From the NCBI RefSeq assembly GCF_003032475.1, contig NZ_CP028369.1, forward strand, positions 7,378,001-7,442,000: 64,000 bases of DNA. The letters are read 5' to 3'. This document shows, one piece after another, positions 13,271-54,021 of the stretch. How positions within the stretch are numbered: the stretch's first letter is position 1; every line of letters begins with the position of its first letter. The stretch is from Streptomyces sp. P3 (GTDB lineage: Bacteria; Actinomycetota; Actinomycetes; Streptomycetales; Streptomycetaceae). The notes below the pieces were generated by a model. The model was not told the DNA's origin and ran no database searches. It saw only the letters and a program-made list of their open reading frames with translations. A program made the translations under genes and the position numbers.

Positions 13271-13385
13271 GCCCTTGCCGCACAAGCCAGATAGACTCGC
13301 CGGAGTCCGGCAACGGGCACCCGGGTCGTCGCGGTCATAGGCGGCAAGTGGATTGATTCGTCGTCCCCTGGGAGGCCCCGTCATG
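13271..13385 (+). promoter_or_regulatory. Conserved cluster leader, copy A
   Basis: About 80 bases (13271-13350) match 27566-27645 at roughly 69 positions, including 28 identical bases from CGGAGTCCGG to CCCGGGTCG. A TAGACT -10-like hexamer sits at 13292. The block ends in a GGGAGGC ribosome-binding-like run before an ATG at 13383. That ATG opens an 80-codon frame (to 13625) with no recognisable product. The radical SAM gene starts at 13720. Copy B precedes the second run of cluster genes. Confidence 0.6.
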
Positions 13386-13719
13386 CTGTCCACGCCGCCC
13401 ACGGCGGACCGTCGGCTACCCAGTGGAATCCGCTCTGCTCACTCGTCGAGTGTGCCGGTGCCTTCTTCACCCTCAAGGCGAGCGTGTGTTCCTCCATCGC
13501 TACAACTCCTAGGCCATCGGCGTCCTCCACATTCGGATGCGCGGGCGTTGCGTATCGCAGTGTTGTCGTCTGTCCGGTTCACACCCAATGGGCTGGCGGT
13601 TCGAGGCCGTCTTCCCAAGCATTGAGCCTTCGGCTCTTCTGAGGATTCGTGACGGCTGCGCCGCGCTTCCGGTCCGCGGGCAGACCCGATTGATCGACCG
13701 GGGATCAAGGGGGCTCCTC

Positions 13720-14832
13720 ATGCCTGAGCGCGCGCTCGACTCGCCGGTGACGGTGAAGGACCTGCGTCGCCGGATCGGTGATCTGTCCTTACAGTTACGA
13801 ACTTCGGGGACGCAGAAGCCGGCGGAGCCTCGGTTCGTCGACTACGACATGATCCGGTTGCCGCACGGTGACGTTGTCGGCCGTAAGAAGGTCATCGTCA
13901 TGTCGGGCGGCTGCTCGGTGCCGACCTGCACGATGTGCCCTTTCACCAATCTGAACAACTACGGCATCCACGGCGGGACCTCGCGCGAGAGTCTGCTGGA
14001 TCAGGTACGTCACACCCTGGAACGGACCGAGTGCGAGCCGTCGTACGAGGTGCTCTCCCTCTACAACGACGGCAGCTTCTTCGCGCCACGGGAGATCCCG
14101 CGGAACGTCCAGGTGGAGATCGCCCGGCTGGTCGCGGCGGCCGGGGTGAAGCGGCTGGTGGTGGAGTCGCTGCCGCAGTTCGTCACCGAGCGAGCGCTGA
14201 CTCCGTTCGTCCAGGCCCTGGGCGAGGTGCGGCTGGAGATCGGGATCGGTTTGCAGTCCGCAGACGCGCTGGTGCGCGAGACGCTGGTGAACACCCGGAT
14301 CTCCCAGGTCTCCTTCGAACGCGCGCTGATGGTGATGGCCGGCCTGGGAGTGGATCCGAAGATCTACCTGATGGTCAAGCCGCCGTTCCTGACCGACGGC
14401 GAGGCGGTGACCGACGTGGTGCAGTCGGTCGACTACCTGACCGGGCTCGGGGTCCAGGGGATGACGCTGTGCCCGACACGGGTGTCGCGGAACACGGTGG
14501 CGTGGGAGCTGTGGCAGGCCGGGCAGTACGTGCCGCCGAACCTGTGGACCGTGGTGGAGGCGATCCGCCGGGTCCATGAGCGGCTCGCGGTGCGGGTGGC
14601 GTGTGTGAACCTGCGGGGGACGGACTTCGAGTCGGTGTTCCCGGATGCCTGCCCTGTCTGCGCGGATCGGGTGGTGGACGCGCTGATGCGGTTCGGAGAA
14701 ACGGGCGAGGCCGACGACCTGCCCGAGGACTGCGCGTGCAAGCCGCCACTGGAGGTGGCCGGGATCGACCACGCGGCCGTCACCGCCCGCGCGGCCCGGC
14801 AGTTGGACGTTCTGGAGCGGTCGGGTGTCTGA
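13720..14832 (+). CDS. Radical SAM enzyme, RaSEA/TIGR01210-like
   Basis: A 370-residue radical SAM protein. The cluster cysteines are C65, C70 and C73 (CSVPTCTMC, spacing C-x4-C-x2-C rather than C-x3-C-x2-C). The blocks YNDGSFFAPREIP, VVESLPQFV, IGIGLQSAD, YLMVKPPFLTDGEA and LWQAGQYVPPNLWTVVEA follow the archaeal RaSEA-type family, which acts on lysine-modified 7-deazaguanine in tRNA. A bacterial member opening a gene cluster is probably a small-molecule enzyme. ATG 13720 has AAGGGGG upstream. It overlaps the P450 start by 8 bases. Confidence 0.8.
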   Translation: MPERALDSPVTVKDLRRRIGDLSLQLRTSGTQKPAEPRFVDYDMIRLPHGDVVGRKKVIVMSGGCSVPTCTMCPFTNLNNYGIHGGTSRESLLDQVRHTLERTECEPSYEVLSLYNDGSFFAPREIPRNVQVEIARLVAAAGVKRLVVESLPQFVTERALTPFVQALGEVRLEIGIGLQSADALVRETLVNTRISQVSFERALMVMAGLGVDPKIYLMVKPPFLTDGEAVTDVVQSVDYLTGLGVQGMTLCPTRVSRNTVAWELWQAGQYVPPNLWTVVEAIRRVHERLAVRVACVNLRGTDFESVFPDACPVCADRVVDALMRFGETGEADDLPEDCACKPPLEVAGIDHAAVTARAARQLDVLERSGV

Positions 14833-16132
14833 GCAGGCCGCCGCGGCGGCCTGCGGGTTACCCCCGCACCACACGGTGCGAAGTTTCGACCTGGACCCGC
14901 TGGGGGCCCTGGAGGAAGGACATCGTCGGCACGGGCCGGTCTTTCGGATGGCGGTCGACGGGCAAGAGACGGTGCTGGTGGGCACCTGGGCGGGGCTGGT
15001 TGAGCTGTTCGCCGGCGAGCGCGGTTGTCTGGAGGTGCTCAACACCCCGCTGGTGCATGACCTGTTCGGCCGCGCCCTGTTCAACCTCACTGGTGAGGGG
15101 CACGCAGAGGCCCGGCGCAGGCTGCGGCCGGCGCTGTCGGGCCGGGCGCTGCCTGGCTACTTGCCAGCCCTGCTGGAGGTGACGGACCCGGTGGCAGCCC
15201 GGTGGGCGCAGCATGGCGTGGGAGATCTGTACACGGAGGTGCGGGCGCTCACCGGCTCTTTGAGCGCTCGGGTACTGCTCGGCATCGCTCCCGAGACGGC
15301 GGACTCGGCCGTGTTCGCCGCCGTGTTCGAGCCGTTCGTCGCCGGGTCCGGCGCTCCGCCGGGACGGGACCGGTTCATGACCGGCCGGTACTGGGCGGGG
15401 CGTGCAGCCCGTCGGCGGTTGCACGCCCTGTTCACCCGCCGGGCGGCTGCGGCTGTCGCCGAGCCTGGTACGGACTCGGCGTTGGCAGGTCTGGTGGCCG
15501 CGTTCGCGGATGCGTCACAGGCGGTGGGCCCGCTGCCGGATCACCTGTTGGCTCTGCTGATCGCGGCGAGGGAGACGACGGCGAGCCTGATCACCTGGTG
15601 CCTGGTCGAGTTGGCCGGCAACCAGCAGCACGCGGTGCTCGCGCAGACGGAGGCGCACATGGCCGTGGCTACGCCGGAGGTGCTGGCGCGGCGGGATGCC
15701 GTGCCCGTTTTGCGGGCGGTCCTCGCCGAGGCTCAGCGTCTGCACTCGCCGAACCTGCTCTCGTTGCGGGAGGCGGTGTGCCCGGTGGACCTGGGCGGCT
15801 ACCGGATCCCGGCCGGTACCCGGGTGGCGTACTCCACGTCGGCCGGGCACTTCGACCCCGAGGTCTTCCCGCAGCCGCATACGTTCCGGCCGCTGCGGTT
15901 CCTGGACGGCGAGGCCCGCGGGGCGCGGCTGTGGGCATTCGGCGGCGGCGCGCACGCCTGCCTGGGCCGGCCGCTCGCCGAGTTGATGGCTCTCACCGTC
16001 ATGGCCTCGGTCCTTCACCAGGGCGTGCCGCGGCTGCCCGGTGGGGCGCCCAGCCGGATCCGCTACCGGCCGGCCAAGGCCCCACTCACTGCGGTGCCGC
16101 TCATCCTCGACCGTCAGGAGATCGCTTCGTGA
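14825..16132 (+). CDS. Cytochrome P450
   Basis: A 435-residue soluble bacterial P450. The heme-thiolate loop FGGGAHACLG puts the Cys at about 379. The K-helix ExxR is EAQR. The I-helix oxygen motif is AARETTAS near 246-253, with Glu-Thr-Thr where AGxET is common. It would hydroxylate or couple a cluster intermediate using a ferredoxin partner, which is not seen nearby. The GTG start at 14825 overlaps the radical SAM stop, and the TGA overlaps the next GTG. Confidence 0.92.
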   Translation: MSEQAAAAACGLPPHHTVRSFDLDPLGALEEGHRRHGPVFRMAVDGQETVLVGTWAGLVELFAGERGCLEVLNTPLVHDLFGRALFNLTGEGHAEARRRLRPALSGRALPGYLPALLEVTDPVAARWAQHGVGDLYTEVRALTGSLSARVLLGIAPETADSAVFAAVFEPFVAGSGAPPGRDRFMTGRYWAGRAARRRLHALFTRRAAAAVAEPGTDSALAGLVAAFADASQAVGPLPDHLLALLIAARETTASLITWCLVELAGNQQHAVLAQTEAHMAVATPEVLARRDAVPVLRAVLAEAQRLHSPNLLSLREAVCPVDLGGYRIPAGTRVAYSTSAGHFDPEVFPQPHTFRPLRFLDGEARGARLWAFGGGAHACLGRPLAELMALTVMASVLHQGVPRLPGGAPSRIRYRPAKAPLTAVPLILDRQEIAS

Positions 16133-17412
16133 CCCGCACCCCACCCGACGCGCTTACCGCCTTGCGGCAGGCGGCAGCCCACCACGACGCTGCCCGGCAC
16201 CGGCTGCATCTGGTGCCGAGCGAGAATGGGCTGTCGCTGGCCGCCCGGGTGCCGCACCTGACGGAGGCCGCCGTGCGGTACGCCTTTCCCGGCCCCGACG
16301 GCGGAGGCGAGAACTGGGCGTGGCCGGGACGGCAGGATCTGGTCGATATCGAGCGTGCCGCGGCCGTGCGGCTCGGCGCGCAGCTGGGCGCGCGCCACGT
16401 GAACCTCAAGCCGGTGTCGGGGGTTTCGGCGCTGACGGTGGCGCTCTCCGCGCTGGCCCGCCCCGGGGCGAGGGCGTTCAATCTGGCGGAGCGCGACGGC
16501 GGACACGGCTCGACCCGCTTCATCGGTACCCGGCTGGGCCTGCAGATGGAAGATCTGCCGGTCGACCCGGCCACGTCCACCCTCGACCTGGACGCCCTCG
16601 CCCGTCTGCTGGGTGGCCAGCCGGAGCCCGAATTGGTGTACCTGGACGCGTTCATGTGCCTGTTCCCCGTGGACTTGTCCGGGCTGCGCGAGGTGGTCGG
16701 CCCCGACACGTTGATCCACTACGACGCCTCCCACACGCTGGGCTTGATCGCGGGCGGCGCGTGGCAGAACCCGCTCGCGGAGGGCGCGGACAGCCTCGGC
16801 GGCTCCACCCACAAGACCTACCCGGGCCCGCACAAGGGACTGCTGGCCACCAACGACGCCCAGCTCGCGGCCCGGCTGGATGAGCACGCCTCGCACTTCG
16901 TCTCCCATCACCATCCGGCCGACGTCGTCGCCCTGGCCGTGGCCGCCGCTGAGATGGACGCCCGCGGCACCGTGTACGCGGCGGCCACCGTCGCCAATGC
17001 CCGCCGTATGGGAGCGGGGTTGGCCGAGCGCGGCTTCGCGGTGTGCGGGGAGAAGGGCGGGTTCACCGACTGCCATCAGCTGTGGATCGACATCGCCCCG
17101 CTGCTGGCCGCCGAGGAAGCCTCCCGCCGGCTGTTCGAGGCGGGGATCGTCGTCAACGCGATCCCGCTGCCGCACATCACCGCCCCGGCGGGGCTGCGCC
17201 TGGGCCTGCAGGAGGTGTCCTGGGCCGGGATGGACGCGGCAGGGATCGACGAGCTCACCGAGATCTTCACCGCCGTGCTGCGCGACGGCCGCGACCCGGC
17301 CTCCGTGGCGGCGCGCACGCGCGCCCTGGTGGAGGCGCACCAAGGCGACGGGGCCGACGAGCAGGTCCTGCGCGTTGCTCTGGCGACCGTCGGAGCCGGG
17401 GGTGGCGTGTGA
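16129..17412 (+). CDS. Serine hydroxymethyltransferase-like PLP enzyme
   Basis: A 427-residue fold-type I PLP protein of the SHMT family. Visible blocks are LVPSENGLS, the substrate-binding YAFPGPDGGGENW, and DASHTLGLI, where the Asp pairs with the PLP ring. The Schiff-base Lys is about 229 in STHKTYPGPHKG. SHMT relatives in clusters include threonine transaldolases that build beta-hydroxy amino acids, so making or cleaving such an amino acid is the likely job (inference). It is divergent from housekeeping GlyA. GTG 16129 overlaps the P450 stop; the stop overlaps the next gene. Confidence 0.8.
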   Translation: MTRTPPDALTALRQAAAHHDAARHRLHLVPSENGLSLAARVPHLTEAAVRYAFPGPDGGGENWAWPGRQDLVDIERAAAVRLGAQLGARHVNLKPVSGVSALTVALSALARPGARAFNLAERDGGHGSTRFIGTRLGLQMEDLPVDPATSTLDLDALARLLGGQPEPELVYLDAFMCLFPVDLSGLREVVGPDTLIHYDASHTLGLIAGGAWQNPLAEGADSLGGSTHKTYPGPHKGLLATNDAQLAARLDEHASHFVSHHHPADVVALAVAAAEMDARGTVYAAATVANARRMGAGLAERGFAVCGEKGGFTDCHQLWIDIAPLLAAEEASRRLFEAGIVVNAIPLPHITAPAGLRLGLQEVSWAGMDAAGIDELTEIFTAVLRDGRDPASVAARTRALVEAHQGDGADEQVLRVALATVGAGGGV

Positions 17413-18584
17413 GTCCGGAGCAACTCCCTTTGCGGGGCGCCTTCTTGGGCCCCGTGCACACCGTGGACACGTTCGAGATCCGCCCGGACTGTCGGCACTT
17501 CGCCGGCGAGAGGCCCTGCCGGCACTGGCGGCCGTGCCACGGCTGCCCGCATCACGACCCCGTCGACCACCGGGTCCTGATCGTGATGCTCGGCCTGCTG
17601 GGGGACATGCTGATCGCCTCCCCGCTTCCCGCGCGGATTCGCGCCGAGAAGCCCGGCGCTCACATCACCTGGCTGGTGGACGAGGCGTGCGCGCCGATCC
17701 TGCGGATGAACCCGTACGTGGACGAAGTCCTCGTCCACGACTGGGAGGCCGCCGCCCAGCTGCCGTCGCGCCGTTTCGACGCGGTGTACTCCTTCGAGCG
17801 GACTCCATCCGCGGCGGCACTGGTCGACCGCATCGACGCCGGGCACAAGGCGGGGCTCGCCTTCGGCGGCCCCCACCACGCCCTGTATCCGATGGGTGAG
17901 GCGGCGATGCAGTTCTTCCGGCAGAACACCTGGAACGACTACCGCACGATCGGCAACCAGCAGACGTGGACGGAGCTGTACTTCGCCGTCGCCGGCTACC
18001 CGTACGCGGGCGAGCCGTACGTCCTGGAAGTGCCCGAGGCCGCCCGGCGGCGTGTGGCCGGGCTTCTCGGAGAGCGGACCGGTCCCAGGGTGTGCCTGAA
18101 TCTAGGCGGGTCGCTGCCGACGAAGCTGTGGCCGGCCCGGCACTGGGCCGAGCTCGCCGACGCCCTCATCGACCACGGGGCGCAGCTGGCCGTCCTCGGC
18201 GGCCCGAGCGACCGCGACGCGTGCGAGGCCCTGGTGCGGCACCTGCGGCTGCGGGGCGCCGACGAGTCCCGGGTGGCGTACGCGCCGCTCAGCCTGGAGG
18301 AGGCCGCCGCGCTGCCGGGCCTGGTCGACGTGGTGGTCACCGGGGACTCCTTCGGCTTTCATCTCGCCCTCGCACACAAGAAGCCGGCCGTGCTGCTGCT
18401 CGGGCCGAGCAACGGCGCGGAGGTCATCCCTAAGCACGTGACGAACGTGACCGCCCTGCGCTCGACGCTGGTGTGCTCGCCGTGCGCCCACCAGGTCGCC
18501 TGCGGCGGGGTCGGCGGCTGCATGGACACCATCAACGTCCCCGCCGTCTTCAAGGCCACCCTCGGCCCCCTGACCACTGACTGA
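17409..18584 (+). CDS. Glycosyltransferase family 9 (heptosyltransferase-like)
   Basis: A 391-residue GT-B glycosyltransferase of the ADP-heptose:LPS heptosyltransferase family. It has VLIVMLGLLGDMLIASPL at the start, LNLGGSLPTKLWPARHWAEL (nucleotide-sugar region) and VVTGDSFGFHLALA. Because the ADP-heptose genes are adjacent and there is no LPS in Streptomyces, the acceptor is presumably the cluster product. Cys-rich pieces lie at the N-terminus (CRHWRPCHGC) and near the end (CSPCAHQVAC), perhaps a metal site. GTG 17409 overlaps the previous stop (GTGTGA). Confidence 0.85.
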   Translation: MSPEQLPLRGAFLGPVHTVDTFEIRPDCRHFAGERPCRHWRPCHGCPHHDPVDHRVLIVMLGLLGDMLIASPLPARIRAEKPGAHITWLVDEACAPILRMNPYVDEVLVHDWEAAAQLPSRRFDAVYSFERTPSAAALVDRIDAGHKAGLAFGGPHHALYPMGEAAMQFFRQNTWNDYRTIGNQQTWTELYFAVAGYPYAGEPYVLEVPEAARRRVAGLLGERTGPRVCLNLGGSLPTKLWPARHWAELADALIDHGAQLAVLGGPSDRDACEALVRHLRLRGADESRVAYAPLSLEEAAALPGLVDVVVTGDSFGFHLALAHKKPAVLLLGPSNGAEVIPKHVTNVTALRSTLVCSPCAHQVACGGVGGCMDTINVPAVFKATLGPLTTD

Positions 18585-18632
18585 CCCGCCTCGCGCCGCG
18601 GGGTGTTGGGCGACTGCGAGAAGGAGCACACG

Positions 18633-20357
18633 TTGGCAACCGTGCTGGGACTGGGAGGCCCGTACTACCACGATGCCTCCGCCTGTCTGGTCATCGACGG
18701 CCGCATCGTGGCCTTCGCCGAGGAGGAGCGGTTCTCCCGCCGCAAGCACCACAAGGACTCCCGCTCCTGCGCGGTGGCCGCGGCGTACTGCCTGTCCGAG
18801 GCCGGCATCACCCTCGACCAGGTCGACGAGATCGCCATCGCGTTCAACCCCGCCTGGCCCGAGCCGAGCGACACGTGTACAGACATGGAGCTGATCGCCG
18901 AACTCCTCGACCCCAGCCTGTTCGGCCATCACCGGCCCCGGCAGGTCACCGTGATCGAGCACCATCTCGCGCACGCTGCCTCGGCGTTCCACCCTGCCGG
19001 GTTCGACGAGGCCGCCGTGCTGGTGGTCGACGGTTCCGGCGACGGCATTTCCGCCACCCTCGCCCACGGCACCACCAGCGGGCTGAAGGTCCTGCGCCAG
19101 TTCCCCTTCTCCCAGTCCCTGGGCTGGTTCTACGAGACGGTCGCCGAACACCTCGGGCTCGGGGACTGGACCAGCTCCGGCAAGCTCATGGGCCTGGCCG
19201 GCTACGGCAACCCGAACCGCTACCAGCTGGACTTCCTCACGCCCCAGGCCGGGGGCTACCACCTGGACCTGTCCCGCTACGGGATCCGCCCCGACGAACC
19301 GGTCGAGGACCAGTACACCGACCTGCGCTACTACCGGCGTCTGAAGGCCGCGTATGCCGCCGCGTACACCGGCCTCGGCATCCCGCCCCACCGTCGCGCC
19401 CGCACCTACAGCAGGGGACGCGTCGTGCCCGACACGGGCTTTGGGCCCGAGCACGCCGACCTTGCCGCCTCGGCGCAGCACCTGCTGGAGCAGTGCCTGG
19501 CCGAGCTGGCCCGCGAAGTCCTCACGCTCACCGGGTCCCGGCGTCTGTGTGTCGCGGGCGGGGTCGGCCTGAACTGCTCCGCCAACGGCCGCCTCGCCGC
19601 CCTGCGCGGCGTGGACGAGCTGTTCGTCCAGCCGGCCGCCGGGGACGCCGGGTGCGCCATCGGCGCCGCCCTTGAGGTCGCGGTGCGCCGCGGCGACCTG
19701 ACGCTGCCCGGTGAGGCGATGACCACCGCCGCTCTCGGCCCTGCGTTCGACCTGGCCACTATCCGCGCGACCCTCACCGACTACGGTCTGGCCTTCCGCG
19801 ACCATGGCGACGACCTTCCGGCCGTGGTGGCCGGGCACCTGGCGCTCGGGCGCACCGTCGGCTGGTTCCAGGGACGCATGGAGGCCGGACCCCGCGCGCT
19901 CGGCCAGCGCAGCATCCTTGCCGATGCCCACCACACCCGGGCCCGCGACCACATCAACGACCGCATCAAGCACCGGGAACCGTGGCGGCCCCTCGCCCCT
20001 GCCCTCCTGGAGGAGGCCGCGTCCGACCTGATCGGTACGAGCGTCCCCCACCCGTTCATGATCGTCGCCCGGCAGGCGACCGAGGCCGCGCAGCGGGTGA
20101 TCCCGGCCGCCGTCCACACCGACGGAACGCTGCGCCCGCAGACCGTCGCCCGCGACGACGCCGACCCGTACGCGCGCCTCCTCGCCTCGTTCGCCGAGCA
20201 GACCGGCCGGCCGCCCGCGCTGCTGAACACCTCGTTCAACCACGAGGCCGAGCCGATCGTGTGCACCCCCCGCGACGCAGTCGCCACCTTCGCCGCCAGC
20301 CCCCTGGACGCACTCGCCATCGGCCCGTTCCTCGTACTCAAGGAGCAGCCGAACTGA
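18633..20357 (+). CDS. O-carbamoyltransferase (NodU/TobZ family)
   Basis: A 574-residue carbamoyltransferase of normal length. The N-terminal Kae1-like domain has HHLAH (His 110, 111, 114), the iron and carbamoyl-adenylate site of TobZ, then VVDGSGDG and CVAGGVGLNCSANG. The C-terminal YrdC-like domain has GRMEAGPRALGQRSILAD and LLNTSFNHEAEPIV. It makes carbamoyl-AMP from carbamoyl phosphate and ATP and carbamoylates a hydroxyl, here probably on the heptose. The TTG at 18633 is chosen because AAGGAG lies six bases upstream; a GTG at 18603 is the alternative. Confidence 0.92.
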   Translation: MATVLGLGGPYYHDASACLVIDGRIVAFAEEERFSRRKHHKDSRSCAVAAAYCLSEAGITLDQVDEIAIAFNPAWPEPSDTCTDMELIAELLDPSLFGHHRPRQVTVIEHHLAHAASAFHPAGFDEAAVLVVDGSGDGISATLAHGTTSGLKVLRQFPFSQSLGWFYETVAEHLGLGDWTSSGKLMGLAGYGNPNRYQLDFLTPQAGGYHLDLSRYGIRPDEPVEDQYTDLRYYRRLKAAYAAAYTGLGIPPHRRARTYSRGRVVPDTGFGPEHADLAASAQHLLEQCLAELAREVLTLTGSRRLCVAGGVGLNCSANGRLAALRGVDELFVQPAAGDAGCAIGAALEVAVRRGDLTLPGEAMTTAALGPAFDLATIRATLTDYGLAFRDHGDDLPAVVAGHLALGRTVGWFQGRMEAGPRALGQRSILADAHHTRARDHINDRIKHREPWRPLAPALLEEAASDLIGTSVPHPFMIVARQATEAAQRVIPAAVHTDGTLRPQTVARDDADPYARLLASFAEQTGRPPALLNTSFNHEAEPIVCTPRDAVATFAASPLDALAIGPFLVLKEQPN

Positions 20358-20444
20358 CTGTCCGACACCACCCGTTCACGGCCGGTAGGTTGAGGGCCGG
20401 CCCCGTGGCCATCATCCGCATCAAGCGAACAGGACCGATTCGCG

Positions 20445-21827: not shown

Positions 21828-21835
21828 GCCCTCAG

Positions 21836-45085: not shown

Positions 45086-45108
45086 AGGCAGAGCCTTTCC
45101 ACAAGCAG

Positions 45109-47023: not shown

Positions 47024-47165
47024 GGCGGCGGCTGGCTTCGTTCACTTCAAGCGACAGCGTTTGTCCATCGGTTCGGGCGTCGGTTGGCGGTCGACAGCGG
47101 CCTGAATGTTCACGAGGAGAAATGACCTCACTGCATGGGGCAGCCCGCCGTCTGTGACAGCTCCC

Positions 47166-47573
47166 TCAAGCCTCTTCGATGATCGAGCAGACCGTGGAAG
47201 GCTCTCCGGTGGGGCGGTCGCCAGCGGCCTCGCGAGTCTCGGTGAGGGTCTGCCGCAGGGCCAAGAGATCAACGACGGTGGCATCGATCTCAGCAATGCG
47301 GGCGTCGAGGAGGTCACGGACGGCGTCGCAGGGCGGGGTGCCACCGCGGCGAATCTCCAACACTTCGCGGACGTCATCAAGGTGGAGTCCCAGAGCGCGG
47401 GCCTGGCGGATGAAGGTCAGCAGCTTGACATCGGCCAGAGTGTAGAGCCGGTAGCCGGCCATGCTGCGCTCTGCCTCAGGCAGCAGGCCCCTGGCCTCAT
47501 AGACCCGGACCGCCTTGCGCGTGAGTCCTGCAGCGCGGGCAGTCTGCCCGATGGTCATGCCGTGCAACGCCAT
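47166..47573 (-). CDS. MerR-family metal-responsive regulator
   Basis: A 135-residue MerR protein. The winged HTH IGQTARAAGLTRKAVRVYEA is at the N-terminus, then a dimer helix and C-terminal metal loop candidates (GGTPPCDAV and PSTVCSII). It is divergent from the metallothionein-like gene, whose promoter has the 20-base spacer and dyad of MerR-controlled promoters. It therefore probably activates that gene. ATG 47573, or 47558 (MTIGQ). Confidence 0.85.
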   Translation of the reverse strand: MALHGMTIGQTARAAGLTRKAVRVYEARGLLPEAERSMAGYRLYTLADVKLLTFIRQARALGLHLDDVREVLEIRRGGTPPCDAVRDLLDARIAEIDATVVDLLALRQTLTETREAAGDRPTGEPSTVCSIIEEA

Positions 47574-47599
47574 GATCGCTCCCTTCCTCCTCTCCAGTG

Positions 47600-47631
47600 T
47601 TGACCTTGCCCCAGGGGCCAGGTTCTAGCGT
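47600..47631 (+). promoter_or_regulatory. MerR-type promoter before the metallothionein gene
   Basis: TTGACC (47600-47605) and TAGCGT (47626-47631) are 20 bases apart, longer than normal. The spacer holds a dyad, ACCTTGCCCC and GGGGCCAGGT. Long spacers with a central dyad are the mark of promoters twisted into use by MerR-family activators. Confidence 0.65.
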
Positions 47632-47674
47632 CGCTCGCGTAGGACAAAAACGCGAGAACAAGGAGGTGAGCGCG

Positions 47675-47824
47675 GTGCCATTCCGTGAGGGTGAGGTTTA
47701 CCGCTGCCCGGACGAGAACTGTGGGTGCGAGCTGACGGTGACCAAGGGCGCCCCAGCGACCTGTGGTGGCCAGCAGAACCCGACCTGCTGCTGTGGGAAG
47801 AAGATGACCAGGGTCGGCCAGTAG
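47675..47824 (+). CDS. Metallothionein-like Cys-rich protein
   Basis: A 49-residue protein with eight Cys and no membrane segment: RCPDENCGCELTV, then ATCGG and PTCCCGKKM. The pattern follows small bacterial metallothioneins, which hold metal ions in thiolate clusters. GTG 47675 is preceded by a near-perfect AAGGAGGTGAG site. It is driven by a MerR-type promoter and followed by a hairpin, making it a single-gene unit in the mercury island. Confidence 0.8.
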   Translation: MPFREGEVYRCPDENCGCELTVTKGAPATCGGQQNPTCCCGKKMTRVGQ

Positions 47825-47834
47825 CTCCTCAGGG

Positions 47835-47862
47835 TTGCCCCGGCTGGCGTTGCCTCCGGGGC
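47835..47862 (+). terminator. Hairpin after the metallothionein gene
   Basis: TGCCCCGG and CCGGGGCA form an 8-bp stem with a 12-base loop, 11 bases after the stop codon. It is a likely terminator without a T-run. Confidence 0.5.
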
Positions 47863-47953
47863 AGCCCCGATGCCGTCCTGGCAAGCCCCCCGCTGCCTTC
47901 GAAACGATTCGTGAACAAAGCCAGGCGGCCATCGGTGGATTCCTCCCCGCGGT

Positions 47954-48241
47954 TCAGCAGCACCGCCTGCGGCGCCGGCCGGCCTGGCCGTGCGCGGATG
48001 CGGCGTCGCTGTGGACGCGGCGGCGCACGAGCACGGTGACGACGGCGGCGATGGCCAGGACGACCGCGGCGTCGACCACCCACGCGATAGACAAAACGGC
48101 GCCGATCCCGGCCAGGACAACGGCCGCGAGCAGGAACGGACCGGCACCGCGGACAGTCGACAGCAGCCGGACGAAGCCTGCGGCACCGCGGTCACCGGAC
48201 CGTTGCAGCTGACGGCGTGAGGGCTGGGGAGGGGCATACAT
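47954..48241 (-). CDS. Small membrane protein, module 2
   Basis: A 95-residue protein. It has two hydrophobic stretches, FLLAAVVLAGIGAVLSIAW and AAVVLAIAAVVTVLVRR, and a basic end closing in CC. It resembles the MerT-like neighbour (48264) but lacks the CC pair in the first helix (GAGPFLLAA in place of CCAGPVLVL), so transport by that pair is not possible. ATG 48241 has AGGAGA at ideal distance. It follows the neighbour by 22 bases in the same operon. Confidence 0.65.
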   Translation of the reverse strand: MYAPPQPSRRQLQRSGDRGAAGFVRLLSTVRGAGPFLLAAVVLAGIGAVLSIAWVVDAAVVLAIAAVVTVLVRRRVHSDAASAHGQAGRRRRRCC

Positions 48242-48263
48242 AACGGTCTCCTCGGGGTCGGAA

Positions 48264-48587
48264 TCAGCGGTCATGCGGGCCGCCTCGCTGCTGTGGTGCC
48301 CGGCGTCGCCTTGCGGCGCTGCCGGAGGCACCCCCGGGCGGGCAGCAGTCGTCGCGGCGGGCGCGGCGGCGTACGAGGACGGTGACGGCCGCGACGGCCA
48401 GGACCACGGCTGCGGCGATCACCCACGGATTGGCGAGCCAGGCGCCGATCCCGGCGAGGGCACCGGACAGGACCAGGACGGGACCCGCACAGCAGACGAT
48501 CATCAGCAGGACGATCCCGATGCCCGGGGCAGCGCCCGTGGCGGGCCGGTCCTGTTCGCGGCGTGGGGGCTGGTCAGAGGTCGGCAT
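48264..48587 (-). CDS. Small MerT/MerF-like membrane protein, module 2
   Basis: A 107-residue protein with two helices. The first carries VLLMIVCCAGPVLVLSGALA, nearly the same as in module 1. A second pair follows the second helix (RDDCCPPGG). It presumably imports Hg(II). ATG 48587 has AAGGA seven bases before and overlaps the end of arsR2. Confidence 0.75.
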   Translation of the reverse strand: MPTSDQPPRREQDRPATGAAPGIGIVLLMIVCCAGPVLVLSGALAGIGAWLANPWVIAAAVVLAVAAVTVLVRRRARRDDCCPPGGASGSAARRRRAPQQRGGPHDR

Positions 48588-48996
48588 GGCGATTCCTTCC
48601 GAGAGTCGGTCCCGGCTGGGCGCGATCACCAGAGCAGCGGTCCGGGACGCCGTCGTGGTCCGCGGCGACGGCGCGGGCGAGGACGACCAGGTCCGCCACC
48701 CGGGGGTCGCCGACGCGGTAGCGCAGCCTCCTTCCGTCCCGGTGGCCGGTCACATACCCGCAGGCCGTCAGACAGGCCAGATGGACCGAGACCCGCGACT
48801 GGGATACCCCTGCATATCCGACGCACTCGGCACAGGTGCGCTCCCCGCGAAGGATGAACTCCAGCAGCTTCAGCCGGGTGGGGTCCGCAAGCGCGCGGAA
48901 GAACCGGGCCACGGTGTCGGTGTGCGAACACCCGGCGTCGGCCTGGCGGGCGGACGCTGCGGCCTCAGTGCGGACCAGAACAGGTGCGGAGCCCAT
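48574..48996 (-). CDS. ArsR/SmtB-type mercury regulator, module 2
   Basis: A 140-residue repressor, paralogue of the one at 44699. The same FFRALADPTRLKLLEFI and VSQSRVSVHLACLTACGYV blocks are present, and Cys sites include AGCSH, RTCAECV and CLTAC. It is divergent from merA2, with a perfect operator-like palindrome between. ATG 48996. Confidence 0.85.
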   Translation of the reverse strand: MGSAPVLVRTEAAASARQADAGCSHTDTVARFFRALADPTRLKLLEFILRGERTCAECVGYAGVSQSRVSVHLACLTACGYVTGHRDGRRLRYRVGDPRVADLVVLARAVAADHDGVPDRCSGDRAQPGPTLGRNRHADL

Positions 48997-49019
48997 GACA
49001 GCCCCTCTCCCACATGCAT

Positions 49020-49039
49020 CTATTCGCCTACTCGAATAG
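49020..49039. promoter_or_regulatory. ArsR operator, module 2
   Basis: CTATTCG, six bases, CGAATAG: a perfect 7-bp inverted repeat followed directly by a TAGTAT box. Position and sequence match the module 1 site at 45109-45128, so both regulators probably bind both sites. Confidence 0.75.
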
Positions 49040-49116
49040 TATGGCGGGGTTCGGGTATTCGGCAAGGCATATAGAAAGCGGGCCGGTACCCGTTCCATCC
49101 AAGGGAGGTGGTGGCT

Positions 49117-50541
49117 GTGAGCACGCAGCGCAGCCGGTTCGATCTGGCGGTCATCGGCTCGGGCGGGGCAGCGTTCGCCGCCGCGATCGCCGCACGGAAC
49201 AAGGGCAAAAGCGTGGTGATGGTCGAGCGCGGCACCACCGGCGGCACCTGTGTGAACACCGGATGCGTGCCCTCCAAGGCGCTGCTGGCCGCCGCCGAGG
49301 CCCGCCATGTGGCCCTCGCCCAGCCGTTCCCCGGTATCCGCACCGAAGCGGGCCCGGTGGACTTCCCCGCCCTGATCAGCGGCAAGCAGGCCATGGTGGA
49401 GGCGATGCGGGCGGACAAGTACGAGGACCTGGCCACCGAGTACGACTGGCCGATCCTGGCCGGCACCGCCCGCTTCGCCCCCGGACCCGAACTGGAAGTC
49501 GCCCTGGGCGACGGCGGCACCACCACCATCGAGGCCGCCCACTACGTCATCGCGACCGGCTCCGCCCCGTGGGCACCGCCCATCGACGGACTGGACGAGG
49601 CAGGCTACCTGACCTCCACCACCGCCATGGAACTCGACCGCCTGCCCGAGTCGATGCTCGTGGTGGGTGGCAACGCCATCGGCCTGGAGCAGGGCCAGCT
49701 CTTCGCCCGGCTCGGCACCCAGGTCACCGTCGTCGAGGCGCTGGACCGGCTCGCCCCGTTCGAGGAGCCCGAGGTCTCCGCGATGATCGAGGACGTCTTC
49801 ACCGGCGAGGGCATCAGCGTGCACACCGGCGTCACCATCACCGCCGTGCGCCGCGACACCGGCGGCTACAGGCTCACCGCCGCCCGCGCGGGCGACGTCT
49901 TCGAACGGAAGGCGGAGCAGTTGCTGGTCGCCACCGGCCGCCGCCCGGTCACCGACGGCCTCGGCCTTCAGACGGTGGGGGTCAAGACCGGGGAGCGCGG
50001 CGAGATCGTCGTGGACGAGCACCTGCGCACCGGCAACGAACGGATCTGGGCGGCCGGGGACGTGACCGGGCATCCGCAGTTCGTCTATGTCGCCGGGGCC
50101 CACGGCACGCTGGTCGCCGACAACGCCCTGGACGGGGCCGAGCGCACCCTGGACTACCACCACCTGCCGCGGGTCACCTTCACCAGCCCGGCCATCGCCG
50201 CCGCCGGTCTCACCGACGCCCAAGTCATCGCGCAGGGCATGGCATGCGACTGCCGCGTCCTGCCCCTGGAGTACGTACCCCGGGCACTGGTCAACCGCGA
50301 CACCCGCGGCCTGATCAAACTCGTCGCCGAACGTGGTACCGGGCGGCTGCTCGGCGCCCATGTCATCGCCGAGAGCGCCGGTGATGTGATCGCCACCGCC
50401 GTCTACGCGCTGGCGAACCGGATGACGGTGCACCAGATGGCCGACCTGTGGTGCCCGTACCTGACCATGGCCGAGGGCCTCAAGCTCGCCGCCCAGACCT
50501 ACACCCGGGACGTGAGCAAACTGTCCTGCTGCGCCTCCTGA
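49117..50541 (+). CDS. merA: Mercuric reductase, module 2
   Basis: A 474-residue MerA with GTTGGTCVNTGCVPSKAL and the C-terminal KLSCCAS. It is very similar throughout to the copy at 45213 (for example, the APWAPPIDGL and RDTRGL blocks are shared). NADPH site VVGGNAIGLEQGQ has Asn in place of Gly. GTG 49117 is chosen because GGGAGG lies 8 bases before; GTG 49108 would overlap that site. Two merA genes in one element imply module duplication. Confidence 0.92.
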   Translation: MSTQRSRFDLAVIGSGGAAFAAAIAARNKGKSVVMVERGTTGGTCVNTGCVPSKALLAAAEARHVALAQPFPGIRTEAGPVDFPALISGKQAMVEAMRADKYEDLATEYDWPILAGTARFAPGPELEVALGDGGTTTIEAAHYVIATGSAPWAPPIDGLDEAGYLTSTTAMELDRLPESMLVVGGNAIGLEQGQLFARLGTQVTVVEALDRLAPFEEPEVSAMIEDVFTGEGISVHTGVTITAVRRDTGGYRLTAARAGDVFERKAEQLLVATGRRPVTDGLGLQTVGVKTGERGEIVVDEHLRTGNERIWAAGDVTGHPQFVYVAGAHGTLVADNALDGAERTLDYHHLPRVTFTSPAIAAAGLTDAQVIAQGMACDCRVLPLEYVPRALVNRDTRGLIKLVAERGTGRLLGAHVIAESAGDVIATAVYALANRMTVHQMADLWCPYLTMAEGLKLAAQTYTRDVSKLSCCAS

Positions 50542-50636
50542 CCCACCACCGCACAGCGATCCGCACCCCTGGGAGTGAGGTACCGCGAAGATGAAGAAAG
50601 ACCACGGACCTGCTCGAGGACCTCGCCATCGCGCCG

Positions 50637-51101
50637 GTGGCCGGCGGGCTGGCCACCAAGGCTATGGAGCCGGTGAGCACCACGCTCTACCAGCTCGAAT
50701 CCGAACCAGACCGGGCCCGCGAGGACGCCGCCCGGCCCGGCCCGCCGTACCGGATCGCCGCCGACAAGACCCTGCGCCTGCTCGGCATCCACCCCGGCGA
50801 CCGCGCCCTGGACCGGGCCGGGCTGGCCTTCCACTACGGACTGGCGATCAGCTGGGCACCGGTCTACGCCCTGCTGCGCCGCACCACCGGCCTGAGCCCC
50901 GTCGCGGCCGGGCTGGCCTCGGGCGCGGCCATGTCGCTGATCGTGGACGAGGGCATCACCCCGCTGGCCGGATTCTCCGCCCCCAACCGGGTCTACCCCG
51001 CCGCCACGCACCTGCGCGGCCTCGCCGCCCACCTCGTCTACGGGCTGGCCGTGGCCGCCGTCACCGAGACCGCCTGGGCCCTGCGCCACCGGCGGCCGTG
51101 A
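50637..51101 (+). CDS. Membrane-associated protein of unknown function, start broken by one base
   Basis: About 154 residues from GTG 50637, with membrane-like segments FHYGLAISWAPVYALL, GLASGAAMSLIVDEG and LVYGLAVAAVTETAW, similar to YagU/DUF1440-type proteins. Its natural start seems to be ATG 50591 after GGGAGTGAGG, but ATGAAGAAAGACC puts the next codons out of frame; with one A fewer it reads MKKTTDLLEDLAIAPVAGG into this gene. So it is either a mutation or a sequencing error. Confidence 0.6.
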   Translation: MAGGLATKAMEPVSTTLYQLESEPDRAREDAARPGPPYRIAADKTLRLLGIHPGDRALDRAGLAFHYGLAISWAPVYALLRRTTGLSPVAAGLASGAAMSLIVDEGITPLAGFSAPNRVYPAATHLRGLAAHLVYGLAVAAVTETAWALRHRRP

Positions 51102-51173
51102 CGCCTCCTCCGCCCCGACAATCATCGGCATGGCCACCACCCGACACTCACCGCAAGAAACCCGGAGGTTCCT

Positions 51174-51617
51174 GTGACCGGCGAGCGGCCCGCACGGCCG
51201 ATGACCATCGGCGAACTGTCCCGGCGCACCCACGTGACTGTCAAGGCACTGCGCGCCTACACCGACTGGGGCCTGATCTACACTGCGGGCCGCAGCCCGG
51301 CCAACTACCGCCTGTACGACTCCGACGCCCTGTGGTGCGTACGGCTGATCGGCGAACTGCGCAGCCTCGGCCTCACCCTGGCCGAGATCCGCGACCTCCT
51401 CAGCACCTACGCGGAAACCGGCGACCGGGCCCTCGGCCCCTCGCTGGCCGAACGCCTGCGCACCGCCCGGGCGCGCATCGAGACCAGGATCGCGGACCTG
51501 GAGAAGACACGGCGCCGCATCGACGCCTTCGAAGCCGCCCACCAGGCCGAACTCGCCGAAGGCAGCGGAACCGGCCTGTGGGCGGATGATCCGAGGCAGT
51601 GCGCCCAGTGCACTTGA
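51174..51617 (+). CDS. MerR-family regulator before merB
   Basis: A 147-residue MerR protein with MTIGELSRRTHVTVKALRAY as winged HTH and a long dimer helix. The C-terminus ends DDPRQCAQCT, a CxxC that may bind metal. GTG 51174. Its stop overlaps the -35 of a MerR-type promoter (51614) that leads to merB, so it likely controls merB expression. Confidence 0.85.
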   Translation: MTGERPARPMTIGELSRRTHVTVKALRAYTDWGLIYTAGRSPANYRLYDSDALWCVRLIGELRSLGLTLAEIRDLLSTYAETGDRALGPSLAERLRTARARIETRIADLEKTRRRIDAFEAAHQAELAEGSGTGLWADDPRQCAQCT

Positions 51618-51645
51618 CTCTGTCCCCGGGGGCAGACCCTACGGT
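51614..51645 (+). promoter_or_regulatory. MerR-type promoter before merB
   Basis: TTGACT (51614-51619) and TACGGT (51640-51645) are 20 bases apart, with a CTGTCCCC/GGGGGCAG dyad in the spacer. This is the architecture of MerR-activated promoters. merB starts at 51723. Confidence 0.65.
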
Positions 51646-51722
51646 CGACCAGGCACCCCCTCCGGACGCGCGGCGGCCGACCGCCCGCCACCTTCGCAAA
51701 GCGACGACAAGGAATCCCGACC

Positions 51723-52370
51723 ATGGACACCTCCGCCCAGAAGCTCGCCGACCGCCTGACCGCCGCCCTGGGCGGCGGCGAAAACGTCACCGGCCAGCCC
51801 TGGCTGTGGCGCCCGCTGCTCCAGCTCCTGGCCACCGGCCGGCCCGTCACCACCGGCCAGCTCGCCACCGCCACCAGCCACACCGAAGACGACGTCCGCC
51901 ACGCCCTGGCCGCCATGCCCGACACCGAATACGACGAGACCGGCCGCATCATCGGCAGCGGCCTGACCCAGCGCCCCACCCCCCACCGCTTCGAAGTCGA
52001 CGGCAAGCAGCTGTACACCTGGTGTGCCCTGGACACCCTCGTCTTCCCAGCCGTCCTCGGCCGCACCGCCCACGTCGAATCCCCCTGCCACGCCACCGGC
52101 ACCCCGATCAGGCTCACCGCAGCCCCCGACGGCGTTACCGGCCTCACCCCGGCCGACGCCGTCGTCTCGATCGTCACCCCCGACGACCTGACCTCCGTAC
52201 GCTCGGCCTTCTGCAACCACGTCCACTTCTTCGCCAACCCAGCCGCCGCCCAGGACTGGCTCACCGACCACCCCGGCATGACCGTCCTGCCCGTCGCCGA
52301 CGCCTACCAGCTCGGCCGCCCCCTCACCCAAAACCTCCTCGACGGGACGACCCCGGAGTCCTGCTGCTGA
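51723..52370 (+). CDS. merB: Organomercurial lyase
   Basis: A 215-residue alkylmercury lyase. The catalytic set is present: Cys and Asp in LYTWCALDTL (C96/D99 of E. coli plasmid MerB) and the second Cys in SAFCNHVHFF (C159). It cleaves the carbon-mercury bond and hands Hg(II) to MerA. The C-terminus ends SCC. ATG 51723 has AAGGAA close upstream. Its presence makes this a broad-spectrum mercury island. Confidence 0.93.
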   Translation: MDTSAQKLADRLTAALGGGENVTGQPWLWRPLLQLLATGRPVTTGQLATATSHTEDDVRHALAAMPDTEYDETGRIIGSGLTQRPTPHRFEVDGKQLYTWCALDTLVFPAVLGRTAHVESPCHATGTPIRLTAAPDGVTGLTPADAVVSIVTPDDLTSVRSAFCNHVHFFANPAAAQDWLTDHPGMTVLPVADAYQLGRPLTQNLLDGTTPESCC

Positions 52371-52379
52371 ATCGCGCCC

Positions 52380-52415
52380 AGCCTTGACCTTCTACCCTGC
52401 TGGAAGGTCAAGGCT
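52380..52415. promoter_or_regulatory. Perfect 13-bp palindrome, MerR operator
   Basis: AGCCTTGACCTTC and GAAGGTCAAGGCT form perfect 13-bp arms around a 10-base centre, ending 7 bases before the MerR gene ATG at 52422. Such sites are typical for MerR/SoxR-type dimers and suggest self-control. Confidence 0.7.
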
Positions 52416-52421
52416 GGAAAC

Positions 52422-52763
52422 ATGAGCATCAGCACCCTCGCCACGGTCACCGGCCTGACCGCCAAGACCATTCGCTACTGCGAGCAGAGCGGACTGCTGC
52501 CCGCACCGCCCCGGACTGCGGGCGGTTACCGCGACTACCCGCCCGAGGCCCAGCCCCGGCTCACCTTCATCCGCGACGCCCAAGCCGCCGGACTCACCCT
52601 CGCCGAGATCCGCGGCGTACTCGCCCTGCGCGACAGCGGCCAAGCCCCCTGTCCCCACGCCGCCGCACTCATCGAGGCCCACCTGCGCCACATCGACGAA
52701 CGCATCACCGCCCTCGCCCGCACCCAAGCCGCGCTACGCCAACTCACAGCCCGAGGCGCCTGA
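52422..52763 (+). CDS. MerR-family regulator, last cargo gene
   Basis: A 113-residue MerR protein. HTH region: TGLTAKTIRYCEQSGLLP. Metal loop candidate: DSGQAPCPHA. A strong palindrome lies right before the ATG. A leaderless or very short-leader transcript is likely because TACCCT lies in the palindrome centre. Target beyond itself is unknown. Confidence 0.82.
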   Translation: MSISTLATVTGLTAKTIRYCEQSGLLPAPPRTAGGYRDYPPEAQPRLTFIRDAQAAGLTLAEIRGVLALRDSGQAPCPHAAALIEAHLRHIDERITALARTQAALRQLTARGA

Positions 52764-52925
52764 TCGACCCCAGGCGCGCCTCGGAATCCGCTACAGTGTG
52801 GCGTTCGTCACGAGGAGTGCTGGAGATAGCGACACGGTGAACCGTTCGAATGCGACACCGGCCAGGTCTTCGTCCCCCATGTAAAGCGACACGACCTGCG
52901 GGGGACACAGTGTCTGCGGAAACAA

Positions 52926-52932
52926 ACCTGCT
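52926..52932. repeat. Transposon core repeat, right (ACCTGCT)
   Basis: This is the second copy of ACCTGCT, directly after the inverted end GCGGAAACAA. The following codons CTG CGC GAG continue the MFS frame left at 34084. Confidence 0.8.
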
Positions 52933-53455
52933 GCGCGAGCTGCACTGGAGCCCGACAGCCCTCGGCATCGTCATGGGCGCCGGCGGTGCCGGCGGCATCC
53001 TCGGCGCCCTGGTCTGGCAGCCCCTGGAACGACGCTGGGGCCCAGGCCCGGTGATGCTCGGAGCGCTCTCCCTCAACCCACTCGCCCAAATCCCTCTGGT
53101 TCTCGTCGGACCCGGACTTGGCGGGCAGATCGCCATCGGCATCGGCATGGTCATCCAAACCGGCGCTGCGGTGTGCCACGGCGGACTCCAGAGGGCGGTC
53201 CGCCAGGAACTCGCCCCCGACGAACTCCAAGGACGGGCCCAGGCCACCGGAGCGTGGCTCGCCTTCAGCCTGCGACCCTTCGCCGCCCTCGCCGCTGGCG
53301 GCCTCGGCACGTGGCTAGGGCTGCACCTCACCCTCACGCTCATCACCGTGGCCCTGGTCATCCCGTTCCTTGTGCTCTGGAACTCACCCGTGCGGGACAT
53401 GAGGACGGTCGCCCCCGCTGCCCTGACTGTTACCGAGGAGCCCGCGAATCCGTGA
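52931..53455 (+). pseudogene. MFS exporter, C-terminal part
   Basis: The last 174 residues of the exporter begun at 33320: LLRELHWSPTALGIVMGAGG and four to five more membrane segments such as VMLGALSLNPLAQIPLVLV. The stop at 53453-53455 overlaps the methyltransferase GTG, the same overlap style as the rest of the cluster. An apparent in-frame start inside the transposon end could allow a fragment to be translated, but half an exporter would not work. Confidence 0.85.
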
Positions 53456-54021
53456 CGATCAACAACCCGGCCACGTACTGGGATCCGCTGTGGACATCAG
53501 GGCGCCGCTACCGCCGCCTCAGTCTCGAAGAGCAGCAGCTGACCGGCCAGTTCCTCGGCGCCGGCCACGGCCGGCCCGCGCTCGACGTCGGCTGCGGCGA
53601 CGGTGTCCTTGCCCGGTATCTACATGGTGACCTGGGATTCCGCACCACAGCGATCGACTGTTCCTCCGCCGCGCTGAAGATCGCCCAGGCCGAGCAGGAC
53701 ACGTCCGACGGTCCGCATTTTCAGCGGCTGGACTTCGAGACCGAGGACATCCGAGCGTTGCCGGAGGCGGCCTACGCCGCCGTCACCTGCCGCTTGGTGT
53801 TCGCCTTCATCAAGGACAAGGCGGCCTTCCTCGCCCGCGTCCGATACCTTCTCCCACCCGGCGGGACGTTCTGGGTCGTCACCCCGCTCGCTGAACGCCT
53901 CCCGGACGAACGGAAGTCCATCGGGATCAGCCCGCAGCACGCCGAATTGCTGACCGCGTCCTGGTCCTCGGTCCACAGCGAAGATCTGGACACGCTGCGC
54001 TGCTACGCGTTGCGCCCCTGA
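53452..54021 (+). CDS. Class I SAM-dependent methyltransferase, last cluster gene
   Basis: A 189-residue methyltransferase. SAM motif I is ALDVGCGDGVLARYL, the acidic motif II is TTAIDCSSAALKIAQ, and a post-motif LLPPGGTFWVVTPL follows. The type suits small-molecule O- or N-methylation. The GTG overlaps the MFS stop, so it belonged to the same operon before the transposon landed; its expression now depends on a promoter in or at the end of the element. Confidence 0.85.
   Translation: MTINNPATYWDPLWTSGRRYRRLSLEEQQLTGQFLGAGHGRPALDVGCGDGVLARYLHGDLGFRTTAIDCSSAALKIAQAEQDTSDGPHFQRLDFETEDIRALPEAAYAAVTCRLVFAFIKDKAAFLARVRYLLPPGGTFWVVTPLAERLPDERKSIGISPQHAELLTASWSSVHSEDLDTLRCYALRP

Follow-up and report, generated by a model that had tools for sequence, protein, structure and literature searches.

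The question raised by this locus is whether the heptose genes of Streptomyces sp. P3 belong to one large biosynthetic cluster, and what the genes around them would make. The window, the whole stretch of DNA that was analysed, is 64,000 nucleotides long and covers positions 7378001–7442000 of a one-contig genome of 9.85 Mb. A preliminary description had read positions 13271–54021 of the window as a single cluster of about 40 kb for a heptosylated, carbamoylated small molecule. This range holds three separate things: a heptose cassette, a module of NUDIX, ABC exporter, HemC, major facilitator superfamily (MFS) and methyltransferase genes, and a mercury-resistance element. The cassette makes up 29% of the range and the mercury element 46%. 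Judged by comparison with related loci, positions 13720–25444 are read here, with modest confidence, as a nine-gene cassette, autonomous and moved by horizontal transfer, for the synthesis of a small carbamoylated heptoside. The cassette is real, well bounded and orphan, and it is narrower than earlier reported.

Genes were called from codon usage. Pfam models were applied to most genes in 13271–54021, and NCBIfam models to some of these. The families named in the preliminary description, including a cytochrome P450, a serine hydroxymethyltransferase (SHMT)-like enzyme, GT9, a carbamoyltransferase, the fusion proteins, three NUDIX proteins, an ABC exporter, HemC, an MFS protein and a methyltransferase, are all present in these hidden Markov model scans.

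Gene content of the heptose cassette

The nine cassette genes lie on the forward strand. The first (13720–14832) encodes a RaSEA-like radical SAM protein with a CX4CX2C motif and four C-terminal cysteines. Residues C65, C70, C73, C311, C314, C338 and C340 are invariant among 25 aligned homologues. The protein matches TIGR01210 (RaSEA) at 165.8 bits, which is under the cut-off of 212.15, and there is no Pfam match. On this score the enzyme is placed as a relative of RaSEA rather than a member. No match to it was found in the PDB. The second gene (14825–16132) encodes a cytochrome P450 (PF00067, E = 9.6e-37, scanned from 14948). Its start overlaps the radical SAM gene by 8 nucleotides, the same as in the annotation of plasmids pFRL5 and pFRL3.

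The third gene (16129–17412) encodes an SHMT-like, pyridoxal phosphate (PLP)-dependent enzyme that is probably a non-folate (threonine) transaldolase or aldolase. It is over the cut-off of the broad Pfam SHMT model (52.8 bits, cut-off 27) and under both NCBIfam cut-offs, with 185 of 335 bits for SHMT and 214 of 650 bits for fluorothreonine transaldolase. The folate-SHMT motif YAEGYPGRRYYGG, with its glutamate, is missing in the cassette enzyme, which reads RYAFPG..ENWAWPG. The motif is present in two of the genome's own SHMTs (two of three copies could be aligned). A bona fide folate SHMT was rejected on account of this loss, which is observed directly. The PLP lysine (HKT) and the GLR region are retained. 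Profile matches include 7k34, a "threonine aldolase" that we take to be ObiH (E = 8.7e-72, 245 bits), and the SHMT structure 4bhd, presumably from M. jannaschii (308 bits). Because the enzyme is under both NCBIfam cut-offs and has lost the folate-SHMT motif, non-folate aldol chemistry is likely. By resemblance, this chemistry may be that of a transaldolase. L-threonine transaldolases are described as a clade apart from SHMTs (PMC5490192, in part).

The fourth gene (17409–18584) encodes a GT9 heptosyltransferase (PF01075, E = 1.5e-22), the only GT9 match in the whole genome. It has two groups of cysteines, C21, C30, C36 and C39, and C349, C352, C358 and C364 (numbered from 17430), which are invariant in 25 sequences. 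These groups may point to a link with the iron-containing heptosyltransferase TibC. Even the closest relatives among solved structures are distant (3tov, E = 7.4e-30; WaaF; WaaC). The fifth gene (18603–20357) encodes an O-carbamoyltransferase of the TobZ/NodU type. Both PF02543 and PF16861 are over their cut-offs, and TobZ (3ver, 423 bits) is the nearest solved structure by sequence. The sixth gene (20445–21827) encodes a left-handed-helix O-acetyltransferase fused to an SGNH hydrolase (Hexapep and Lipase_GDSL_2). Its top NCBIfam match, the WbbJ O-acetyltransferase, reaches 68.8 bits and is under the cut-off of 243.

The last three genes are those of heptose supply. A tridomain NDP-heptose synthetase (21917–23878) combines a GmhA isomerase, a kinase and an adenylyltransferase (SIS_2, PfkB and CTP_transf_like). 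The HldE type of its adenylyltransferase domain is confirmed by TIGR02199 (184.8 bits, cut-off 181.5). Its motif reads YLDGHSTT. The motif of the NTP-promiscuous HENases (STTR5) is given in part of PMC11573728 as (F/L)XXGRSTT, and an adenylyltransferase of the STTR5 type was dropped as a candidate, since YLDGHSTT is without the arginine. The synthetase is followed by an HldD-like ADP-heptose 6-epimerase (23875–24852; TIGR02197) and a GmhB-like heptose bisphosphate phosphatase (24905–25444; PRK08942, scanned from 24758), which also has a histidinol-phosphatase domain over the cut-off. The TIGR02199 and TobZ/NodU-type matches bear out the heptose-using, carbamoylating gene set of the preliminary description.

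The intergenic gaps are, in order, -8, -4, -4, +18, +87, +89, -4 and +52 nucleotides. The overlapping starts and stops reported earlier thus hold for four of the eight junctions, and the other four have gaps of +18 to +89. The genes at 13720–25444 probably form one operon. No nonribosomal peptide synthetase (NRPS) or polyketide synthase (PKS) assembly-line gene is found among the nine in the Pfam and NCBIfam scans. The earlier statement that no NRPS, PKS or ribosomally synthesized and post-translationally modified peptide (RiPP) gene is visible holds within the conserved borders. A role in anti-phage defence was rejected, as none of the nine proteins (0/9) matches any PADLOC defence model.

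Conservation, borders and mobility

A GT9-alignment search of GTDB representative genomes yielded 20 loci. The core order of radical SAM, P450, SHMT-like enzyme, GT9, carbamoyltransferase and acetyltransferase is the same in 19 of these, from Streptomyces to Nocardia. The twentieth locus is a contig of 3,966 bases that shows three of the genes. The shared core order is far from chance. When near-identical copies are collapsed, 14 distinct loci remain, 13 of which are complete and have the core order. Two Catenulispora loci are 99.97–100% identical. The same identity, over 17–21 kb, is seen among six loci labelled as different Nocardia species (L013, L014, L015, L017, L018 and L019), which suggests either recent transfer or mislabelled or contaminated assemblies.

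The heptose-supply genes are placed on either side of the core. GmhA/HldE and HldD directly follow it in nine loci (Streptomyces, Kitasatospora, Sphaerimonospora, Catenulispora and a streptomycete) and directly precede it in ten (Nocardia). A GmhB-like gene is called in seven of the nine non-Nocardia loci, and one of the two exceptions stops at a contig end. In three Nocardia types a HAD-like gene of another kind, judged by eye from its motif, follows the cassette. Of the gene families beyond the cassette, none is shared by more than 4 of the 15 neighbourhoods compared (14 loci plus the window, each reaching roughly 10 kb to either side of GT9). The gene families, their order, the borders and the co-conservation are direct observations.

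The cassette also occurs on plasmids. On pFRL5 (Streptomyces sp. F8) and pFRL3 (Streptomyces sp. FR1) it is present at 81.7% DNA identity and is directly preceded by a helix-turn-helix gene. The pFRL3 cassette is without the GmhB-like gene. Within 15 kb of either plasmid cassette, the NUDIX, ABC, HemC, MFS and methyltransferase genes of the window have no called relatives. The cassette is rare, with GT9 found in 1 of 295 genomes of the genus (E ≤ 1e-20) and 1 of 394 of the class, each time the window's own. GT9 homologues of about 51–53% identity exist, such as in S. canus, and protein matches also come from Frankia, Amycolatopsis and Dactylosporangium. By a rough count, at least 43 of 56 GT9 contigs of 10 kb or more are also among the SHMT or radical SAM matches listed; 8000 candidates were scored in each of the protein searches behind this figure.

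A 33-nucleotide motif in the leader or promoter region (13651–13683, forward strand) precedes the first cassette gene. It occurs once in the window and is found with 0 to 4 mismatches in 6 of 15 loci scanned (L003, L004, L005, L011, L138 and L139), in all six about 70 bases ahead of the radical SAM start. The motif hardly differs between Streptomyces and Kitasatospora sp. MBT63. It has no Rfam match, and RNAalifold gives no convincing covariation (covariation term +0.3). A precursor peptide ahead of the radical SAM gene was rejected in this gap, the only one covered, as no open reading frame (ORF) of 20–110 amino acids is common to all 16 upstream stretches of 700 bases. The only small upstream ORF shared beyond close relatives, of about 104 amino acids in L004, L011, L138 and L139, lies inside a regulator gene. 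Some short ORFs common among Nocardia fall within preceding cassette genes.

Two further observations concern the genes around the cassette. A peptide deformylase gene (11822–12397) lies 1.3 kb ahead of the cassette in the window, and one that is 66% identical lies about 4.3 kb ahead of it on pFRL3 (L139:10169–10672); the gene is not labelled in the 20 cassette loci. Four genes to the right of the range, at 54062–56668, have reversed counterparts, 55–69% identical, that immediately follow the cassette of Kitasatospora sp. MBT63 (L005), which is one more neighbourhood held in common.

Proposed product

The product is most likely a heptoside, carbamoylated and acetylated, whose aglycone is of an amino-acid type, as far as the gene families indicate. 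We infer each reaction step, the order of the steps and the amino-acid nature of the aglycone from these families. The tridomain synthetase, the GmhB-like phosphatase and the HldD-like epimerase would convert sedoheptulose 7-phosphate to ADP-heptose. The radical SAM enzyme and the P450 may prepare an aldehyde or oxidised precursor and, together with the PLP enzyme, would yield a hydroxylated amino-acid-type aglycone. GT9 would attach the heptose, the carbamoyltransferase would modify a hydroxyl group, and the acetyltransferase-SGNH fusion would add, and perhaps also remove, an acetyl group. The combination of a transaldolase with a carbamoyltransferase is plausible because both co-occur in capuramycin-type clusters, where the SHMT-like transaldolase LipK/CapH is paired with the carbamoyltransferase CapB (PMC6384614, in part).

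A bolder and more doubtful possibility, put forward tentatively, is a new class of heptosylated, carbamoylated, acetyl-masked beta-hydroxy amino acids. These would be made wholly by eight or nine plasmid-borne genes that act as a kit, with neither an assembly line nor a precursor peptide. The RaSEA-like enzyme might then give an unprecedented aglycone, and the acetyltransferase-SGNH protein might act as an on/off mask for self-protection.

The cassette is small, sharply bounded and found in several actinomycete genera, and it could be cloned whole. If the proposed product is correct, a route to amino-acid glycosides would be added to the few known natural-product uses of heptose. Tools keyed to NRPS, PKS or RiPP core genes may miss the cassette. 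A relative in the same genus that lacks the cassette (G079) and the copies on plasmids provide ready comparisons.

The NUDIX-ABC-HemC-MFS-methyltransferase module

The second part of the range is judged to lie outside the cassette. Three NUDIX genes, an ABC exporter, a small ORF, HemC and the N-terminal part of an MFS gene are found at 27928–34087, and the rest of the split MFS gene and the methyltransferase at 52926–54021, all on the forward strand. In G079, the FxLD lanthipeptide genes are followed by NUDIX, NUDIX, ABC, HemC, MFS and methyltransferase genes, with neither the heptose cassette nor the mercury element between. Positions 27864–34087 are collinear with this genome at 93%. G079 is rated 78% complete, but the compared stretches abut, and the genome is without a GT9 match anywhere. 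In S. filamentosus, a HemC/NUDIX/ABC/MFS module lies about 130 kb from the cassette, and a second set of NUDIX, ABC, MFS and methyltransferase genes, without HemC, begins about 19 kb past the cassette end. A HemC paralogue (E ≤ 1e-50) is found in 11 of the 295 genus genomes, against 1 of 295 for GT9.

The HemC, NUDIX, methyltransferase and exporter genes probably do not serve the heptose product, because the module occurs without the cassette and the cassette occurs on plasmids without the module. G079, the two plasmids and the distance in S. filamentosus speak against the membership that the preliminary description had given to these genes. The pyrrole unit that it had proposed for the product falls with them. 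HemC or pyrrole chemistry in the heptose product was rejected, as the genome holds two HemC genes besides the module copy, which is thus a third, and the module copy is found without the cassette. In two Kitasatospora genomes, relatives of the ABC, NUDIX and methyltransferase genes adjoin FxLD genes on one strand, 30–41 kb from the cassette. For this reason, the evidence suggests that the module is better read as a companion of lanthipeptide genes than of the heptose cassette, and it may belong to a lanthipeptide cluster. The NUDIX-ABC-HemC-MFS part of the module (27928–33221) is also present in L073 and L157; L157 adds a PIMT-like gene (by eye).

Neighbouring FxLD lanthipeptide genes

An FxLD precursor gene lies at genome positions 7370972–7371091, 6.9 kb to the left of the window and about 20.6 kb ahead of the radical SAM gene. 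Its neighbours are PIMT-, LanB- and LanC-like (names given by eye). FxLD precursors are over the cut-off in 7 of 14 cassette genomes. None is found on pFRL3 or pFRL5 (0 of 2 whole records) or in S. filamentosus, and none is over the cut-off in Streptomyces sp. A 4/2 or five Nocardia genomes. In G079 the FxLD genes are present and the cassette is absent. These absences, and the FxLD genes of cassette-free G079, make it more likely that the FxLD genes and the cassette share a genomic neighbourhood than that they share a pathway.

Alternative explanations

The points that weigh against an autonomous cassette come from its neighbours and from its chemistry. In Streptomyces sp. MNU76, the cassette and the module are side by side as in the window (13208–26304 collinear at 97%, 26599–39045 at 95%). 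Of 14 cassette genomes, 10 have relatives of the ABC exporter (E ≤ 1e-60), and 6 of the 10 have one, together with NUDIX relatives, no more than about 41 kb from the radical SAM start. The distances are +16.4 kb in the window, +17.9 kb in MNU76, +41.2 kb in S. filamentosus, -36.5 kb in Kitasatospora sp. MBT63, -41.2 kb in K. phosalacinea and -3.8 kb in Catenulispora. These six maps are not random draws, having been chosen for FxLD, HemC or ABC matches; where contig pieces were joined in them, the overlaps match exactly. NUDIX and ABC genes are near the cassette more often than chance, though not on plasmids or in Nocardia genomes. In Catenulispora, ABC and NUDIX genes directly precede the cassette, and a HemC relative lies 24.7 kb upstream. 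A single pathway that unites the cassette with the NUDIX, ABC, HemC, MFS and methyltransferase genes would account for this adjacency; it is improbable in view of G079 and the plasmids, which separate the two sets, the wider occurrence of HemC than of GT9, the distance in S. filamentosus, and the position of the Kitasatospora relatives beside FxLD genes. The single cluster of the preliminary description fails on the same separation and on the inserted mercury element. In five of the seven FxLD genomes the precursor is on the cassette contig, 11–21 kb upstream of the radical SAM gene, and G301, one of the remaining two, has a cassette contig of only 17.7 kb. The chance that at least three of five lineages show this linkage is 4e-6 with uniform placement and 0.004 with tenfold cluster crowding. 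Lanthipeptide genes, NUDIX, ABC and cassette are co-directional in Catenulispora, with no large gap. The linkage is non-random but not general, and wider partners are possible where it occurs. That the cassette tailors the ribosomal peptide of this lanthipeptide cluster outside the window is unlikely, given the cassette-bearing plasmids and genomes in which no FxLD precursor was found and the FxLD genes of G079.

The chemical points concern individual enzymes. The isomerase, kinase, phosphatase and epimerase are under their cut-offs (GmhA 161.5 of 209.45 bits, kinase 126.3 of 345, GmhB 156 of 178 and HldD 175.3 of 274.6), and the SHMT-like enzyme, at 214 of 650 bits, misses that for fluorothreonine transaldolase. 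RaSEA, the nearest named relative of the radical SAM enzyme, acts on preQ0-lysine bound to tRNA (PMC11298593, in part), and together with the TIGR01210 match of 165.8 bits this would fit a cassette that modifies a nucleic acid, such as a tRNA base. Such a role is very improbable, since no ArcS- or TGT-like gene is found among the nine in the Pfam and NCBIfam scans made, the P450, acetyltransferase-SGNH and GT9 proteins do not fit, and PADLOC gives no match. Lastly, no exporter or resistance gene is conserved with the cassette, which is odd for an antibiotic. The carbamoylated, acetylated heptose might instead be placed on a surface glycan or other polymer. Another Streptomyces cluster, examined in two loci (L136 and L137), has GmhA, HldE, GmhB, two GT9 proteins, a carbamoyltransferase and glycosyltransferases with the look of GT4 and GT2 (by eye), and the best model for the cassette acetyltransferase is a lipopolysaccharide O-acetyltransferase, although under its cut-off. 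Scans of the cassette genes reveal no polymerase, flippase or second glycosyltransferase within the conserved borders, and the radical SAM, P450 and PLP enzymes, which are without an obvious polymer role, are kept in 19 of 20 loci; a polymer is unlikely on these grounds.

Comparison with known systems and other heptose clusters

No cluster with the composition of the cassette was recognised in the titles and abstract openings of the papers listed for heptose, carbamoyl, transaldolase and radical SAM clusters, and the gene order may already be mentioned elsewhere. The absence of a characterised counterpart agrees with the preliminary description. In bleomycin-type clusters, the sugar modules contain a GT9-like transferase and a NodU-type carbamoyltransferase. 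The parallel drawn earlier with these clusters is weak: the cassette encodes ADP-heptose synthesis and has no NRPS or PKS, and the L136/L137 cluster likewise combines GT9 with carbamoyltransferase and heptose genes.

A candidate for every activity of the ADP-heptose pathway (GmhA, HldE, GmhB and HldD) is also encoded in the cassette. The fusion of isomerase, kinase and nucleotidyltransferase is as in one HENase type (PMC11573728 and PMC11461863, both in part). Compared with this pathway and with actinobacterial tridomain synthetases, the cassette adds the radical SAM, P450 and PLP enzymes, GT9 and the carbamoyltransferase. In septacidin/spicamycin and hygromycin B, the heptose of an actinomycete natural product originates from sedoheptulose 7-phosphate (PMC10948575, in part), which is the likeness to the cassette. 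Capuramycin-type clusters (A-503083) resemble it in the CapH/LipK and CapB pair described in part of PMC6384614. The cassette differs from them in having no nucleoside-5'-aldehyde dioxygenase or NRPS, and heptose genes and GT9 instead. Unlike the septacidin and hygromycin B clusters, it has no recognised nucleoside or aminocyclitol gene and contains GT9 and the trio of radical SAM, P450 and PLP enzymes.

Homologues of the tridomain protein (E ≤ 1e-60) occur in 108 of 295 genus genomes. Among the matches listed, most genomes have two matches, with GmhA and HldE apart, and five genomes (the window's own, G187, G165, G038 and G172) have an undisrupted full-length tridomain protein. The L136/L137 cluster shares heptose supply, GT9, GmhB and the carbamoyltransferase (36–37% identical) with the cassette. 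It differs in having GmhA and HldE as separate genes, two GT9 genes and extra glycosyltransferases (by eye), and among the genes called, none is related to the radical SAM, P450 or SHMT-like enzymes. In two other Streptomyces loci (L134 and L135), a tridomain synthetase that is 56–58% identical has as its neighbours, by eye, luciferase-like genes, a large ABC gene and small peptides that resemble leaders; this may be a system for a heptosylated peptide. A third tridomain context (L132 and L133) is beside ABC-transporter-like genes (by eye) and a gene of 455–463 amino acids with about 25–27% similarity to L134/L135 genes.

Mercury-resistance element

The third part of the range is an inserted element of 18.8 kb (34088–52925) that splits the MFS gene, as identified from the scans and from comparison of its flanks with G079. 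It contains a recombinase-like trio (34187, 35647 and 37422), two MerA, MerB, two MerR, VKOR and ArsR genes. The two MerA proteins (648.5 and 602.7 bits, cut-off 454.45) and MerB (295.6 bits, cut-off 193) all pass. The window flanks at 34087 and 52926 join in G079 at the common bases ACCTGCT, and the MFS gene of G079 is uninterrupted (429 amino acids). Aligned to an uninterrupted homologue, the N-terminal part of the MFS protein corresponds to residues 17–260 and the C-terminal part to residues 259–417. In the recombinase trio, the first gene alone has matches, which are weak and of the XerC/XerA type; the motifs were read by eye. The trio may be comparable to the three tyrosine recombinases of Tn554-like elements. 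In Streptomyces sp. MNU76, the trio is present in the same MFS gene with other cargo behind it. Because the trio and the gene are the same and the cargo is different, cargo seems to have been exchanged behind a fixed recombinase trio.

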